A stretch of 64,000 bases of DNA from Clostridiales bacterium (GTDB lineage: Bacteria > Bacillota > Clostridia > Christensenellales > Borkfalkiaceae): positions 62,001-126,000 of the forward strand of contig SVIP01000005.1 of assembly GCA_015069425.1 (NCBI GenBank), in the 5' to 3' direction. The translations under genes were made by a program, and so were the position numbers. Positions 6,556 to 45,249 of this stretch are shown here, piece after piece; the stretch's first letter is position 1, and each line of letters begins with the position of its first letter. The notes under the pieces are model-generated. The model was not told the origin of the DNA. It did not search any database and saw only the letters and a list, made by a program, of their open reading frames with translations.

Positions 6556-8055
6556 TTAATTTGTGTCAAAATTTTCTATTTTAACAACTTTCCAACCTTT
6601 CTTTTGACCAAATCGCTTTGCGTTCTTTTTCTTTATAACAAAGATTTGTGGAAAATATTTATAAGCAACCAAGAAAAGCACAACAAGCACTATTAAAACA
6701 AGTATTAGTATAAGTGCTAAGTCCGATAACGTTATAAGTTTTACCTCGTTCCACATTTTATTTACGAGTTCAAGTTCTTGTGCACTAAAGTTATTCATTA
6801 CTGCACATCTTAATATTTCTTGCTCTGTCGGATATTGAGCGGAAAATTGTCTGCCAATTTCGTCAGTTCTAACCACGTACGCATCAGTCGTACACTCGGG
6901 ATCAAAGAAATATTTTAAATCTACCGTGTATTCGCCCTCATCATTGCCGTAACAGTCTAAAATATAATCAAATACAGACGTATCTTCTGTGCCAGCAATA
7001 CAGCTTGTGTAGCCTATATAATCCATATTTCTTACGGCAATCTCTGGTCTACTCATAAAGTCCATAAATTCAAGAGCGAGTTCTTCGTCAGCGTCTTTTG
7101 TTAAAACCCAACCGTCAAACCAAACGTTACTGCCCTCTTCTGGAACAACGTAACCTAGTTTTGAGTAGCCTTCGCCCTCGTTGCTCTCATAAATTGCATA
7201 AGCCGCATCACCACTCCAAGCAAAGTTAACGTCAATCTTACCAGTTAAAATATCGTTCTTTCCCGCATCAACTTCAAAACCATAAAGATTGCTCTTTAGT
7301 TCAATTAATGCATCACGAACTTCTCTTATTGACTTTTCGTCTACCCTATTAAACACTTCTGATATCTTTTCTTTATATTCCGCTTCTAAAATTTCACCTG
7401 AATTTAATTTATCTTTAAGAGATAAGAGTTCGTCCTTATACACAATACCGAGCGACATAATGTAACTATCTCTAATACTGTCTTTTATGGTAATTTTACC
7501 ACTGAACTTTTGGTCGTACAATTTACTCCAACTATTGAGGTCTTCTGCATTGTATTTATCCATATTATAAATTAAACCCATTGTGCCCCACATATAACCT
7601 ACGGCATAGGTTCTTTCTCCATCAGATAAACCTAAATCCTCAAACACACTCTTAATATACGGAGATGCATTTTGAGCATAATTTTCCGGCATATTAAATT
7701 GTTTAATTAATCCCTCGTCTTTCATTTTGAGTATCATATACTCGGACGGACAAACTATGTCGCAAGCCGTGGGATCTTTCTTTAGTTCGTTATACATTTC
7801 TTCGCAAGTTGCGAACGTATAATAATTAACCTTAATTCCAGTTTCCGTCTCAAAATCTTCAAGTACGCCCGTTTCTGTGTCGTCCTCAGCCTCTTCAATA
7901 TAGTCTTCCCAACTAAAAACAGTTATTTCTTTCTCTACCCCTTCCGCCTTTACTTTTACTGCCGAAACTGGGCTTGCCATAAAGCCAGAAATTATACTAA
8001 ACAATAAAGCAACCAAAACGAAAAGTCGTGTAATTTTATATATTCTCTCTGTCAT
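6556..8055 (-). CDS. potD: Polyamine-type ABC transporter substrate-binding protein (PotD-like) with C-terminal TM helix
   Basis: VFSWEDYIEE...FETETGIKVNYYTFATCEEMYNEL and DIVCPSEYMI; directly downstream of PotA/B/C-like genes; hydrophobic segment LALILILVLIVLVVLFLVAYKYF near the C-terminus. Confidence 0.85.
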   Translation of the reverse strand: MTERIYKITRLFVLVALLFSIISGFMASPVSAVKVKAEGVEKEITVFSWEDYIEEAEDDTETGVLEDFETETGIKVNYYTFATCEEMYNELKKDPTACDIVCPSEYMILKMKDEGLIKQFNMPENYAQNASPYIKSVFEDLGLSDGERTYAVGYMWGTMGLIYNMDKYNAEDLNSWSKLYDQKFSGKITIKDSIRDSYIMSLGIVYKDELLSLKDKLNSGEILEAEYKEKISEVFNRVDEKSIREVRDALIELKSNLYGFEVDAGKNDILTGKIDVNFAWSGDAAYAIYESNEGEGYSKLGYVVPEEGSNVWFDGWVLTKDADEELALEFMDFMSRPEIAVRNMDYIGYTSCIAGTEDTSVFDYILDCYGNDEGEYTVDLKYFFDPECTTDAYVVRTDEIGRQFSAQYPTEQEILRCAVMNNFSAQELELVNKMWNEVKLITLSDLALILILVLIVLVVLFLVAYKYFPQIFVIKKKNAKRFGQKKGWKVVKIENFDTN

Positions 8056-8056
8056 C

Positions 8057-8857
8057 TTACACCTTCCCGTTGTTTTTTACTTTTTTGTTTGAACGAACAT
8101 TCATTAAAACAACTGCTAAAACAGTTATTAAGAAAATTATTGTCGTCAATGCTCTATAAATTGGAACTTGTTCACTTGCTTTTTCTGTAGAAAGAGCAAT
8201 CGCTTTATATACAGCTGTAGAAATTGTGTCGTAATCTAATGGCGATAAGGTTGCTGTAATTATATAGTCATCAAGAGACAAAGTTATCGCAAGCATAAAC
8301 CCAGAAAAAACACCTGGTAGAATTTCTGGTAACACTACCTTAAAAAGCGCTTGAAAAGGCGTTGCGCCTAAGTCTAATGCCGCTTCGTAAAGATTTGAAT
8401 CCATTTGTTTCAACTTAGGGATAACAGACAAAACTACAAATGGAGCAGATAATACGATATGTCCTACGTATAACCCAAAAATTGAACGATGCGAAAGTCC
8501 TAAAATTATCATTAACATAACTAATGCACACGCAGTAACTACTTCTGAGTTTACGACTGGAATTTGTGATGCTGTCTTAACCGATTTGCCCAATTTACCT
8601 TTGCTATAATAGATGCCCACCGCACCCAACGTTCCAAGTATTGTCGCTATTATTGATGATACTACTGCTAGTGTAATAGTGTTAAACACAACGTCTTTGA
8701 TTTCACCAAGTTTTCTATACCAAATAAATGAAAATCTCTCCCAAACGCCGATTACCTTGCCTTGGTTAAAACTATACATTACAAGTATAAATATAGGTAT
8801 ATAAATAAACGCTAACACTAAAAAGACGTAGCCTCTGGTAAAAAACTTCTTTATCAT
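8057..8857 (-). CDS. potC: Polyamine-type ABC transporter permease (PotC-like)
   Basis: Permease signature EAALDLGATPFQALFKVVLPEILPGVFSG; operon context. Confidence 0.88.
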   Translation of the reverse strand: MIKKFFTRGYVFLVLAFIYIPIFILVMYSFNQGKVIGVWERFSFIWYRKLGEIKDVVFNTITLAVVSSIIATILGTLGAVGIYYSKGKLGKSVKTASQIPVVNSEVVTACALVMLMIILGLSHRSIFGLYVGHIVLSAPFVVLSVIPKLKQMDSNLYEAALDLGATPFQALFKVVLPEILPGVFSGFMLAITLSLDDYIITATLSPLDYDTISTAVYKAIALSTEKASEQVPIYRALTTIIFLITVLAVVLMNVRSNKKVKNNGKV

Positions 8858-9720
8858 ATATTAGTTCCCCTCCCAGTGCTTTCTTTTTTAAATCCTCCCG
8901 TTGCAAGCATTGTGCCAAAGAGAATTACTAACATTATCAATGAAATAGTTGCTCCGCCGTTAACGTTTGTCATTGCACCGTTTTCGCCCAAGAAACACCA
9001 CGCGATAAGTTTACCAATTACTGTAAAGCCTGTGCTTCCACTAAAAGTGTCCGTTATTACGTAACAACTCATTACTGGCAAAAACACCATCATTGCACCG
9101 CTTATTATCCCTGAAAACGAAAGCGGTAACGTTACACTTGTAAATACCTTAACTTTACCTGCACCTAAATCAAACGCCGCTTCTTCTAGGCTTCTGTCCG
9201 TCTTAATTAACGTTGAATATAACGGTAAAATCATGAAAGGCAAATAGTCGTACGTTAAACCGATTATATTCGCAAAAGAGCCTAATGGTAATTGCACCAA
9301 ACTTAAAAATTCTTTCATTGCCATTGCACGAAGAACAAAGTTTATCCACATTGGCATTATAAATAAAAGTAAGAGCACAAACGCCGTTTTTTGGTTCATT
9401 CTAGAGAGTATATATGCGACTGGATAGGATATCAATAAGCATATAAGTGTCACTAGCATTGCCACAAGTACGCTTATCACTAGCGTACTTATCTTTGTCA
9501 TATCAGTAAAAAAATCTAAAAAATTAATAAAAGTGAATGTTCCAGTCGAATCTGTAAAAGCATAGTAGACTACAAGCAACAATGGAAAAACCACGAACAT
9601 TGCCAAAAACAGACCGTATGGTATGCACAATTGTTTTCTAGAAAATGTAAAACCTCTTTTTACTGACTTTTTATCGTCAATAAAATCAGTTCTACTTATC
9701 TGTTTTCTTTGTTCAGTCAT
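8854..9720 (-). CDS. potB: Polyamine-type ABC transporter permease (PotB-like)
   Basis: EEAAFDLGAGKVKVFTSVTLPLSFSGIISG; operon context. Confidence 0.88.
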   Translation of the reverse strand: MTEQRKQISRTDFIDDKKSVKRGFTFSRKQLCIPYGLFLAMFVVFPLLLVVYYAFTDSTGTFTFINFLDFFTDMTKISTLVISVLVAMLVTLICLLISYPVAYILSRMNQKTAFVLLLLFIMPMWINFVLRAMAMKEFLSLVQLPLGSFANIIGLTYDYLPFMILPLYSTLIKTDRSLEEAAFDLGAGKVKVFTSVTLPLSFSGIISGAMMVFLPVMSCYVITDTFSGSTGFTVIGKLIAWCFLGENGAMTNVNGGATISLIMLVILFGTMLATGGFKKESTGRGTNI

Positions 9721-11231
9721 CTTTTAATCTCCTGCTTTAGTGAAAGTTTTATGTTTTCTTTCTTAATAATTACGCTTACCCTATCGTTTTCGTTCCAAGT
9801 ATCTTCCGTATCGAACACGTAATCTTCTTCGTTTTCGCTAGTTCTAACTATTAACTGATAGTGGTCACCTTTATATATCATTGAAACGATATTCCCAACT
9901 GCACCGCCATCTTCTTCATGGTCGCTTATTTCTATATCTTTTAAGCCGACCTCAACGTTTACGTCCACGTCGGTAAGGTCAATTTTATCTCCATCTTCGG
10001 TAATAAGATAACCGTCTTCATCTAAAATAGAACCTTTATACAATTGTGTAACATCGCACTCAAATTCACCGTCACCAAAGCAAACGGTATTGTGCTTGGT
10101 AATATATCCATCATACTTATTGGTTGAAAATTCTTTTGCCATAATATGGATATTATCGGGCTTAATTAACAAACTTACTTGTTCGCCAACCTTTCTTTCA
10201 ACAGTGCTTTGAATAACTATTTCCGTTTTGCCAACCTGCATTACCATTTCATAATGCACGCCCTTAAAAATTGAATTGATAATTTTTCCATCTACTTGTC
10301 CCTCTCCCTTATCCAACAAAATAACGTCTTCAGGGCGAACTACAACGTCAACTTTTTCATTAATCGCAAAATCATCTACACAATCAAAGTTATGTCCAAT
10401 AAATCTTACCTTCCTATCCCCAACTATAGTAGCACTAAAAATATTACTTTCGCCTATAAAGTCGGCAACGAATGAGTTTTTAGGCTCGTTATAAATATCT
10501 GTTGGCGTTCCTACTTGTTGTATTACACCGTCTTTCATTACAACGATTGTATCACTCATTGTTAGTGCTTCTTCTTGGTCGTGCGTAACGTAAATAAATG
10601 TAATACCTAGTTTTTTATGCATTTCCTTAAGTTCTAATTGCATATCCTTTCTCATTTTAAGGTCAAGTGCACCGAGCGGTTCGTCAAGAAGAAGAATTTT
10701 AGGTTCGTTTACGATTGCACGAGCAATTGCAACCCTTTGTTGTTGCCCACCAGAAAGGGTTGATACACTACGCTTTTCAAAGCCTTCCAAATCCACCATT
10801 TTGAGGGCTTTTTCAACCTTTGCATTAATTTCTGTCTTGCTAAGTTTTTCTATCTTTTCAATTTCTTTTCCTTGGCTGTCTTGATAAGTAACTTTTACTT
10901 TTTTAAGCTTTAACCCAAACGCTATATTTTCATAAACGTTTAAATGCGGAAAAAGCGCATAACGCTGAAACACCGTATTTATAGGGCGTTTATTCGGAGG
11001 CAAATCACTTATATCTTTGCCATTAAGTAAAATTTTACCAGCAGTCGGTTTATCAAATCCTGCTATCATTCTAAGCGTCGTTGTCTTACCGCACCCAGAA
11101 GGTCCTAAAAAGGTTATAAACTCTCCTTTCCTAACGTATAAGTTTACGTTGTCAACGGCAAGCATTCCGTCTTCAAATTCTCGTGTTAATCCAACTAATT
11201 CAATTATTTTTTCTTTTGAGTTGTTTGACAT
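9717..11231 (-). CDS. potA: Polyamine-type ABC transporter ATP-binding protein with extended C-terminus
   Basis: GPSGCGKTTTLRMIAGFDKPTAG, LSGGQQQRVAIARA, LLLDEPLGALD; ORF extends to 11273 but start at 11231 (MSNNSKEK) preferred because the upstream part overlaps a terminator hairpin. Confidence 0.9.
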   Translation of the reverse strand: MSNNSKEKIIELVGLTREFEDGMLAVDNVNLYVRKGEFITFLGPSGCGKTTTLRMIAGFDKPTAGKILLNGKDISDLPPNKRPINTVFQRYALFPHLNVYENIAFGLKLKKVKVTYQDSQGKEIEKIEKLSKTEINAKVEKALKMVDLEGFEKRSVSTLSGGQQQRVAIARAIVNEPKILLLDEPLGALDLKMRKDMQLELKEMHKKLGITFIYVTHDQEEALTMSDTIVVMKDGVIQQVGTPTDIYNEPKNSFVADFIGESNIFSATIVGDRKVRFIGHNFDCVDDFAINEKVDVVVRPEDVILLDKGEGQVDGKIINSIFKGVHYEMVMQVGKTEIVIQSTVERKVGEQVSLLIKPDNIHIMAKEFSTNKYDGYITKHNTVCFGDGEFECDVTQLYKGSILDEDGYLITEDGDKIDLTDVDVNVEVGLKDIEISDHEEDGGAVGNIVSMIYKGDHYQLIVRTSENEEDYVFDTEDTWNENDRVSVIIKKENIKLSLKQEIKR

Positions 11232-11265: not shown

Positions 11266-11295
11266 AAAAACAAAACGCAAGCTCATTAGCTTGCG
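11266..11295 (-). terminator. Intrinsic terminator upstream of potA
   Basis: Minus strand CGCAAGCT-AATG-AGCTTGCG followed by TTTTGTTTTT. Confidence 0.85.
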
Positions 11296-11598
11296 AAAAC
11301 TTTCAATACCACACAATTAACAATTAAGACTTTGTCTTTATTGTTTTAAAAAATATGGGTTTTAGAGTCTATATAGCTTCAATACTTTTACTACTCTTAT
11401 TGACCGTTTCACAAGTCTGCGAATTCTCGCATTCGGTTATAAAGTAACCAACTTATAAAATTTGAGTTTTTAACTCAATCAATAACGTGGCATCGCCACG
11501 AATCGGCAGTGGACCCGGCTGTCCGTATGGCCTCAACTCTAATTAGAGTGGTCCGAATATTGGCTTGGAAAGACTCTTAAAACTTTAGATTCAATCCA
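11296..11598 (-). ncRNA. Candidate structured RNA (stand-alone ncRNA or leader of the pot operon), family not recognised
   Basis: Own promoter (TTGACA-17-TAATAT), long-range closing stem GTTTTAAGAGTC (11572-11583) / GACTCTAAAAC (11359-11369), internal hairpins ACTCTAATTAGAGT, CGTGGC-GAT-GCCACG, TTGAGTTAAAAACTCAA, TGCGA-GAAT-TCGCA, terminator at the end. Confidence 0.65.
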
Positions 11599-11604
11599 CT
11601 TATT

Positions 11605-11633
11605 ATATTAAATTATTTTGCTTTATCTGTCAA
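11605..11633 (-). promoter_or_regulatory. Sigma-A-type promoter for the structured RNA
   Basis: TTGACA (11628-11633), 17-nt spacer, TAATAT (11605-11610). Confidence 0.7.
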
Positions 11634-11692: not shown

Positions 11693-11861
11693 TTACCAAT
11701 CGTCTTTTGGCGTTAGCTTAATATCGTCGTAATACTCAAAATACTTTTCTTTTGAACTCTTTATTCTTTCGTCTTCCCACTCTTCAGGATACGCAGCATC
11801 TTCTTCCTTATTATCGGATTCTCTCATTAAGTCGTATAGCGTTTTACCTTTGTTTGGCATT
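11693..11861 (-). CDS. Small acidic hypothetical protein downstream of feoB
   Basis: MPNKGKTLYDLMRESDNKEEDAAYPEEWEDERIKSSKEKYFEYYDDIKLTPKDDW; start overlaps the 3' end of feoB; no family recognised. Confidence 0.5.
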
Positions 11862-13761
11862 TTCTTCCTCCTCCGCAAGAATGTGCGCATAAGTTACATT
11901 TGTAATTTTTTAATCGCTTTATTGCAAATATCAAACTTGATAATATTATTATACCAATAATTATAGATAAAAGCAAGCCTCCGCTAACATCAAATAAAAA
12001 GCCTATAAAGTTTATTATAAACGCCACTATATATGCGGTTATTATTTGAAATATCATCATCATAAAAAATAACTTATTGCTTTTCAGTTCTTCTCTTGCA
12101 GTAGCTAAACTTGCAACACAAGGCGGAGAGAGTAAAATGAACGCCATAAACGCATAAACCGAAAACCTATTATTAAACAAAACGCTAACGTCGTCAGATA
12201 ATAAACTTAGCGATTCAACTACTGCTTCTTTTGCAAAAGTTCCTGAAATTATAGATACTGCCGTTTGCCAATTAAAAAATCCAAGCGGATAAAATAAATA
12301 TTTTAAGATATCACCCAAATAAAATAAAAAACTTTGCTCAACGTTATCGCCTACATATCCACTTACTCCAACACTTTTAAGTAACCATAAAAACACTGAA
12401 ACAGCAAAAACTATAAGACCTGCTCTTGTCATAAACTCTTTGACCTTCTCTTTTAAAACGGAGAAAACGTCTTTGATTGCAGGAACTCTTAAATAGGGCA
12501 TCTCTAACAAAAACTCCCCTATGCCACACTTAAAAGTCTTAAGTTTTTTTAAGATAAAACCGAAAACGCCTACGCATAGCATACTTAAGAAGTACATTGA
12601 TGTAGCGACCAACGGATTACCATTAAATAATCTTGCTGAAAAATAAGCAAACACTGCAGTTTTTGCACCACAAGGCATAAAAGGAGAGAGAAAAATAGTC
12701 ATCTTTCGTTCACTCTCTCCTTCTATAATTCTTGTGGACATAAGTCCCGTTACCGTACAGCCACAGGATACTATCATAGGTAAAAGAGACTTCCCACTCA
12801 AACCAAAAAAACGGAAAAAAAGGTCAAATAAGAATGCAACCCTTGACGCATACCCACTTTCTTCAATTACTGCAATTAAAGCAAATAGAATCAAAATTTG
12901 TGGCAGAAATGACAATATTCCACCTAAAGAGTTTATAACTGCGTCACAAACAAGTGATACTATAAACTCTGTTACACCTAATTGATTTAAGCATATTTGA
13001 GTGTTATAACTTAATTTTTCAAAAAAACTACTTATAAATACACCGAAAAAACCTCCTACCTTCATGGTCAAAAAGTAAATGATAGTCATAACGATAAAAA
13101 ATATAGGTAGTCCAAAATTCTTGTGCATCAAAATCTTATCAAGTTTAAGGGTTGTCTTTTCTAATCTTAAAGGCTTTTTTATTAATACCTGTTCGGTAAT
13201 CTTCTCCACCAAAGAAAATCTCTTAGATTGTGCATTTTCGCCTTTTTCTTTAGATATATCAAGTTGAATCGGGATATCCTTACTCGTTTTTGCTTTGTCC
13301 ATCAATAAGTCTATATTTATATCTTTTAAAGCCGATATATTTATTACGGGAATATTAAATATTTTAGATAGTTTATCTTTATTGAACCGTACGTTATTAT
13401 TATTAAGTTGATCACACATATTTACAGCAATTATCATAGGAATTTTTAACGAACACAGTTCTACCGTTAATGAAAGATTGCGCTCTAAATTTGTCCCGTC
13501 TAATACATTTATAATCACATCGGGCGGAGTTTTTGTCAAATAATTTAACGCATTTGTTTGGTCAAGTGTATCCGTAGATAAGGAATAAAGCCCAGGAAGA
13601 TCAACAATTTCAATGTTTTTATCTTTAATATATTTACTCTTTTTTTCTTCAGTAGTTACACCTGTCCAATTTCCCACTCTTTGATATGAATTAGTTAGTT
13701 TATTAAATAGAGTGGTCTTTCCGCAATTTGGATTTCCAGCTAACGCTATAACTTTATTCAT
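11827..13761 (-). CDS. feoB: Ferrous iron transport protein B with Cys-rich C-terminal tail
   Basis: GNPNCGKTTLFN, VGNWTGVTTE, DLPGLYSL, multiple TMs, SCGCTVTGLMSTR; C-terminal CNLCAHSCGGGRKC. Confidence 0.95.
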   Translation of the reverse strand: MNKVIALAGNPNCGKTTLFNKLTNSYQRVGNWTGVTTEEKKSKYIKDKNIEIVDLPGLYSLSTDTLDQTNALNYLTKTPPDVIINVLDGTNLERNLSLTVELCSLKIPMIIAVNMCDQLNNNNVRFNKDKLSKIFNIPVINISALKDINIDLLMDKAKTSKDIPIQLDISKEKGENAQSKRFSLVEKITEQVLIKKPLRLEKTTLKLDKILMHKNFGLPIFFIVMTIIYFLTMKVGGFFGVFISSFFEKLSYNTQICLNQLGVTEFIVSLVCDAVINSLGGILSFLPQILILFALIAVIEESGYASRVAFLFDLFFRFFGLSGKSLLPMIVSCGCTVTGLMSTRIIEGESERKMTIFLSPFMPCGAKTAVFAYFSARLFNGNPLVATSMYFLSMLCVGVFGFILKKLKTFKCGIGEFLLEMPYLRVPAIKDVFSVLKEKVKEFMTRAGLIVFAVSVFLWLLKSVGVSGYVGDNVEQSFLFYLGDILKYLFYPLGFFNWQTAVSIISGTFAKEAVVESLSLLSDDVSVLFNNRFSVYAFMAFILLSPPCVASLATAREELKSNKLFFMMMIFQIITAYIVAFIINFIGFLFDVSGGLLLSIIIGIIILSSLIFAIKRLKNYKCNLCAHSCGGGRKCQTKVKRYTT

Positions 13762-43527: not shown

Positions 43528-43793
43528 GCCGTACTATGCGGGGAGTTAGCGATGCCCTGTCGTCCGCAATTCGCTTAGCGGAGCAGAATGCCGTTTTAGG
43601 CTTGCGTCGTGGAAGGCCGCGTTTAATAAGGGACGTTGATATTAAGGTCTTATGCAACGTGTCGCCGTGAACCGTGTCAGAGTAGGAATACAGCAGCACT
43701 AAGCGGAATGATTCGTGTGATATGAGGTTGCTTTAAGGGAGTTACCTGTTATCCTAACGCTTCGGCGTCGCCTGTCGAGAACGGACGTACGGT
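43528..43793 (+). ncRNA. ffs: Signal recognition particle RNA, long bacterial form with Alu domain
   Basis: GCCGTACTATGCGGGGAGTTAGCGATGCCCTGT 5' domain, GTGTCAGAGTAGGAATACAGCAGCACTAAG SRP54-binding domain, terminal pairing CCGTAC/GTACGG followed by a T-run. Confidence 0.93.
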
Positions 43794-44893: not shown

Positions 44894-45249
44894 TGGTGGA
44901 GGCGCGGAGACTTGCACTCCGGTCTTGAACGCCCAGCAAAAATTTTCTACATACTTATCCGACGATTGATTTTCGTGATAATCTTGGTCATCGGCGACCA
45001 TTGATTATCCTTTGATTTTTAAGTTCCGCTAAACGGGCAAAATCAAACCCGAATAGCAGTACCCCGTCTAATTGACGCTCATTCTTTTCCCAACGGGCGA
45101 GAAAAAGAGGAACGTTCGCTTAAATTTAAGCAGCGAATGCTAATTCGTTATTGTTAGCATTTAAATTTAATTTTCCGTTTTTACGAAGCCGAGCCTTCGG
45201 TATGCTTATACCTTTACTAAAAACGCCCAATCGAATCTGGAACGCCCCC
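44894..45249 (-). ncRNA. ssrA: Transfer-messenger RNA (tmRNA)
   Basis: 5' GGGGGCGUUCCAGAUUCGAUUGGG, 3' GUGCAAGUCUCCGCGCCUCCACCA; acceptor stem GGGGGCG/CGCCUCC; tag reading frame GCT AAC AAT AAC GAA TTA GCA TTC GCT GCT TAA (ANNNELAFAA*). Confidence 0.96.

Follow-up and report, generated by a model that had tools for sequence, protein, structure and literature searches.

A widespread leader RNA of polyamine genes in Firmicutes that includes Rfam family RF02440 is a candidate polyamine riboswitch

In silico analysis of a 64,000-nt stretch of a Clostridiales genome (contig SVIP01000005.1, positions 62,001 to 126,000; here named the window) revealed a structured RNA on the minus strand, with feoAB as its upstream and potABCD as its downstream neighbor. 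We consider it likely that this RNA is the potABCD leader, a member of a large class, and that it works as a transcriptional OFF switch, probably as a riboswitch for a spermidine-like polyamine. It is a fairly probable reading that the class as a whole directly senses a polyamine and, in Firmicutes, controls how polyamines are both made and imported; SpF59 and srn235 would be pieces of it, and copies also occur here and there in MAGs of spirochaetes and Synergistaceae. Riboswitches are a known kind of RNA, while the class and role described here appear to be new.

The leader has a promoter, TTGACA-N17-TAATAT (10/12 matches), which a preliminary description of the locus had already placed on the minus strand; from its position, transcription is predicted to start near 11598 (-). 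A sigma-70-like promoter was found at the equivalent place in 120 of 156 related loci, compared to 35 after shuffling. The intrinsic terminator described just before potA was also found, whereas shuffling the region would be expected to give 0.3 terminators. The locus consists of the following elements:

11605..11633 (-), promoter, with TTGACA at 11633-11628, a 17-nt spacer and TAATAT at 11610-11605
11359..11583 (-), conserved RNA of about 225 nt, candidate aptamer closed by helix P1
11266..11295 (-), intrinsic terminator CGCAAGCT-AATG-AGCTTGCG-TTTTGTTTTT, at 11295-11276 plus tail
9717..11231 (-), potA, first gene of potABCD, ATG at 11231, above the TIGR01187 cut-off
8854-9720 (-), potB, potABCD operon
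8057-8857 (-), potC, potABCD operon
6556-8055 (-), potD, potABCD operon

As had been proposed, the core of the leader contains no plausible coding sequence; the longest minus-strand open reading frame (ORF) wholly inside it has 27 amino acids and a TTG start. A 65-amino-acid ORF at 11693-11890 (-) and the 3' end of feoB overlap, each in its own frame, and several relatives of the same genus instead carry a gene for a membrane-like protein of about 200 amino acids between feoB and the RNA. The window also harbors a large bacterial SRP RNA (43529-43792, +) and a tmRNA (44894-45249, -), both ordinary Rfam matches.

The RNA had been regarded as unrecognized. Analysis using cmscan showed that positions 11554-11503 (-) match RF02440 (SpF59_sRNA, "Streptococcus sRNA SpF59 (ldcC RNA)") at 70.3 bits (gathering threshold, 37.2); this match comprises 52 nt and spans all 54 model positions (1-54). 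The other ~170 nt of the RNA belong to no Rfam family, so that the novelty that a strong Rfam match was to remove is lost for the 52 nt and retained for the rest. For the rest, Rfam gave only chance-level matches, far below gathering, at an E value of ≤5 (SAM-II, group I intron, and a nematode sRNA).

In the loci compared, conservation runs ~170 nt beyond RF02440, to the sequence GACUCU at the 3' end, and an alignment of 30 diverse sequences contains 53 invariant columns. Identity among nine loci of the same genus is 87% in the RNA, compared to 64% in the flank upstream of it and 62% in the spacer that leads to the gene. Furthermore, we built a covariance model, R1, from the 3' domain only. 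It has 104 positions and zero overlap with RF02440, and it matches the window at 11485-11384 (-) with 115.4 bits, the window copy being among its training sequences. R1 was found in 20 of 399 genomes of a phylum-wide draw, i.e., in all 18 genomes with an RF02440 match plus two more, and in the 18 shared genomes its match lies ~20 nt downstream of the RF02440 match. Of the two loci with an R1 match only, L198 has a changed P3 helix (AGAC/GUCU for GGACC/GGUCC), and L205 has lost a recognizable 5' domain but kept the 3' domain, the terminator, and a decarboxylase gene; the latter could be a degenerate or respecialized variant. In the Bacilli loci L191 and L192, the copy is complete and its P3b is flipped (GCC/GGC instead of GGC/GCC). 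These comparisons show that RF02440 represents just part of a ~225-nt RNA: its model is limited to the 5' 54 nt, and Rfam lists it as an sRNA gene, whereas we find ~225 nt and an expression platform in cis, upstream of four kinds of polyamine gene. The longer conservation and the fixed cis position before polyamine genes do not fit a stand-alone 54-nt sRNA gene, and RF02440 covers only part of the RNA and is probably mistyped. The Rfam alias "ldcC RNA" shows that someone had noticed the link to ldcC before.

The proposed fold comprises two long-range helices and two domains, and every proposed helix is canonical in the window copy:

11583-11572 with 11369-11359 (-), P1, GTTTTAAGAGTC complementary to GACTCTAAAAC
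11564-11558 with 11384-11376 (-), P2, long-range helix inside P1, CAAUA/UAUUG plus GC/GC
11503..11554 (-), 5' domain (RF02440 part), three-way junction P3/P3a/P3b
11554-11550/11515-11511 (-), P3
11549-11545/11540-11536 (-), P3a
11532-11530/11519-11517 (-), P3b, with loop CAUACGGACA
11486..11500 (-), P3c, hairpin CGTGGC-GAT-GCCACG
11384..11485 (-), 3' domain, absent from Rfam, P4-P5-P6 followed by GAGTAGTAAAAG
11485-11478/11404-11397 (-), P4
11477-11473/11467-11463 (-), P5
11460-11451/11416-11407 (-), P6
11449-11446/11438-11435 (-), P6a
11431-11427/11422-11418 (-), P6b
11410..11415 (-), CUUGUG in the P6 3' strand, proposed antiterminator strand, can pair with CGCAAG at 11295-11290

Covariation was assessed in 153 sequences against a null of our own modeled on R-scape, in which substitutions from a Fitch reconstruction on a FastTree tree were redistributed; this null was small, so that the E values are approximate. 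Over all columns, the pair with the strongest covariation is the one that closes P3 (UA 74, GC 48, CG 20). P3a, P3c, and P2 pass in a restricted set of pairs with E values of 1.7e-5 to 0.03, the value being 0.03 for the best pair of P3c and for one pair of P2, of which variants include GCAAAUA/UAUUUGC and GCGAUAA/UUGUUGC. Overall, 90.7% of the proposed pairs are canonical, compared to 31-46% when the pairing is slid. P4 and P6 are nearly invariant, and their support therefore comes from pairing and not from covariation. The perfect hairpins of the preliminary description exist in the window, and its GC-rich segment GGACC...GGGTCC is present but is better described as the P3/P3a/P3b junction. 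The long-range stem said to close the 225-nt core, P1, is real in the window, yet across relatives no other helix has less support, and P2 fares better there. RNAalifold alone preferred a 3' hairpin, AAGAGU:GACUCU (80-92% paired per position), over P1, and this hairpin is a possible alternative pairing. In four Bacilli loci (L167, L173, L181, and L187), UUGGAAAGCUAAUAUUCAAUAUAUC upstream is complementary to GAUAUAUUUUGAAUAUUAAAGAGCUUUC downstream, enclosing the whole RNA, possibly as an extension of P1 in that lineage.

We next consider the genes downstream of the RNA, counted at those 184 distinct loci whose downstream sequence extends to 200 nt or more. A polyamine gene follows in 182 of them, and in the other two the fetched DNA ends at 309-361 nt. 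Four gene families account for these loci: AdoMet decarboxylase (speD, 59), Lys/Orn/Arg decarboxylase (48), carboxynorspermidine synthase (48), and potA (27). The first homologous residue lies a median of 182 nt beyond the RNA (maximum, 515). Names were taken from NCBIfam; for the decarboxylase and the synthase, the representatives did not reach their equivalog cut-offs, so that the exact substrates are putative. Going by these assignments, the four unrelated families seem to cover polyamine import and synthesis, with spermidine or a near triamine as the common product. The host of the window copy has one Orn/Lys/Arg decarboxylase-family gene, and a search of its genome for an E. coli-type speD found none, which fits a reliance on polyamine uptake. 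At one locus (L093), a PII-like gene (GlnB family by eye) lies between the RNA and potA.

Terminators of ≤-14 kcal/mol were found within 240 nt at 144 of 157 loci, compared to 17 in dinucleotide shuffles. The terminator 5' arm can pair with the P6b/P6 3' strand, with a mean duplex energy of -13.3 kcal/mol across loci. This value weakened to -6.8 kcal/mol when the letters of the arm were shuffled, and to -11.15 (standard deviation [SD], 0.19) or -11.6 (SD, 0.13) when arms were permuted among all loci or within a gene class, respectively. When the arm was slid along the RNA, a sharp optimum appeared exactly at the P6b/P6 3' strand, the best partner in 82 of 145 loci; at L018, for example, UUGCACAGACUUGU pairs with ACAAGCUGUGCGA. 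The duplex of the window copy is modest (-8.0 kcal/mol) and weaker than in most relatives. By computation, aptamer and expression platform are mutually exclusive, and a structured aptamer-like domain stands 5' of the genes of one pathway, both as expected of a riboswitch. The proposal of a terminating leader or riboswitch for the pot operon has therefore held up well as regards a structured, terminated leader, given the gene linkage and the terminator/antiterminator pair; the riboswitch is a candidate.

We propose that the nascent RNA would fold into the ~225-nt aptamer, closed by P1 and P2 and containing the P3/P3a/P3b junction with its ACGGAC loop, P3c, and P4-P5-P6. Binding of the ligand, a polyamine and in all likelihood spermidine or a triamine like it, would keep P6 closed, the terminator could then form, and the operon would be switched off. 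When the ligand is absent, the P6 3' strand (..ACUUGUG) would be free to pair with the terminator 5' arm (GCAAG..), and the resulting antiterminator would allow expression of potABCD. We infer the OFF direction from the anatomy, since P6 excludes the antiterminator and the antiterminator excludes the terminator, so that a stabilized aptamer should mean OFF. Spermidine or a near triamine is suggested as the signal by feedback logic and by the common product of the four gene families. Polyamines bind RNA unspecifically, and gene linkage by itself is therefore no proof of direct sensing, which we nevertheless favor; among other RNAs with such a linkage, there are some, e.g., the speF motif, for which polyamine binding has not been demonstrated (PMC11477304).

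All of the anatomy described above would suit equally well a cis attenuator of polyamine genes in which the RNA is not the sensor by itself and the choice between terminator and antiterminator is driven by the ribosome, by a protein that binds the RNA, or by ionic effects of a general kind (Mg2+ or polyamine charge). We consider this rather unlikely, as the invariant columns noted above are kept across many Firmicutes families, and so much invariant sequence is typical of small-molecule aptamers and unusual for protein-bound leaders. A leader peptide, with ribosome stalling on a short translated ORF as the polyamine sensor, was also considered because an ATG ORF starts from AAUGCC of the joining region in 64 of 159 loci. 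The remaining loci mostly have ACUGC, AACGC, or AAAGC at this site (ACUGCC in the window), and the distance to P6 falls into all three frames (62/54/43); with no conserved small ORF, this attenuator was rejected as scarcely credible.

The typing of RF02440 implies a stand-alone sRNA that acts in trans; the preliminary description raised a stand-alone ncRNA, and pneumococcal catalogs list srn235/F59 as an sRNA (PMC3395615, PMC12323649). In favor of this, the RNA has its own promoter and terminator, and the leader, once terminated, should be seen as a discrete RNA. Against it, the place before polyamine genes is fixed, and the terminator arm and P6 coevolve, for which there would be no need in an RNA that acts in trans. 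We regard this explanation as very improbable and favor the cis-acting riboswitch, although the terminated RNA may have trans roles as well. The Streptococcus pneumoniae RNA F59/srn235/SN20/Spd_sr49 (RF02440) is the same RNA as the window copy and stands before SP0916. It was located between SP0915 and SP0916, and a lung-fitness effect was seen in transposon data (PMC3395615). Its catalog length is 327 nt, and it is present in all 385 genomes for which a match count was given (PMC12323649). A complete leader with its terminator, which measures 351 nt in L191, agrees with this length, and a 54-nt sRNA does not. A likely job can thus be assigned to an RNA long cataloged as a pneumococcal sRNA; in the open-access papers searched, the present RNA was found in sRNA catalogs only and was nowhere described as a polyamine switch.

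Polyamines are universal. More polyamine riboswitch classes surely exist according to workers in the field (PMC10853860). The spermidine riboswitch of Salvail et al. (2023) is a SAM-I variant with a four-stem aptamer, known from 13 examples in a few Bacilli; it precedes ldcC, speE, and speB and turns expression OFF via a terminator/antiterminator (PMC10853860). The present RNA resembles it as a polyamine-gene leader with a predicted OFF switch of the same type. In contrast, it is larger, differs in sequence, is far more common (about 5% of the phylum-wide genome sample versus 13 examples of the accepted class), and also precedes potA, speD, and carboxynorspermidine synthase genes. SAM-I was not found in the stretch at an E value of ≤5, and SAM-II reached 15.2 bits, i.e., chance level; the two are different RNAs. 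The speF, odc1, and potE motifs are likewise conserved RNAs before polyamine genes (PMC8632094, PMC11477304); the odc1 and speF motifs are alphaproteobacterial, and the potE motif is confined to Veillonella with weak structural support. The Rfam speF model did not match the stretch at an E value of ≤5.

Direct polyamine sensing by RNA becomes testable in many species. Besides the 18 of 399 phylum-wide genomes, RF02440 matches were present in the same family (42 of 301 genomes), in a draw from the class of G366, another RNA-bearing genome of the phylum (31 of 400 genomes), and in Lactococcus lactis, included as a named control. Scanning public genomes with a pattern yielded at least 118 stretches, one of which (L136, Streptomyces) was a chance coding match and was dropped. 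The matches listed include Paenibacillus, Bacillus, Neobacillus, Lachnospiraceae, Oscillospiraceae, Acidaminococcus, and Phascolarctobacterium. Also among the matches listed are single copies before speD in a spirochaete and a Synergistaceae MAG (L078 and L106); these copies outside Firmicutes reflect either horizontal transfer or contig misassignment. A search of phage records for the RNA gave zero matches, and a plasmid collection gave one, on a 2.7-Mb Paenibacillus replicon, at 74% identity.
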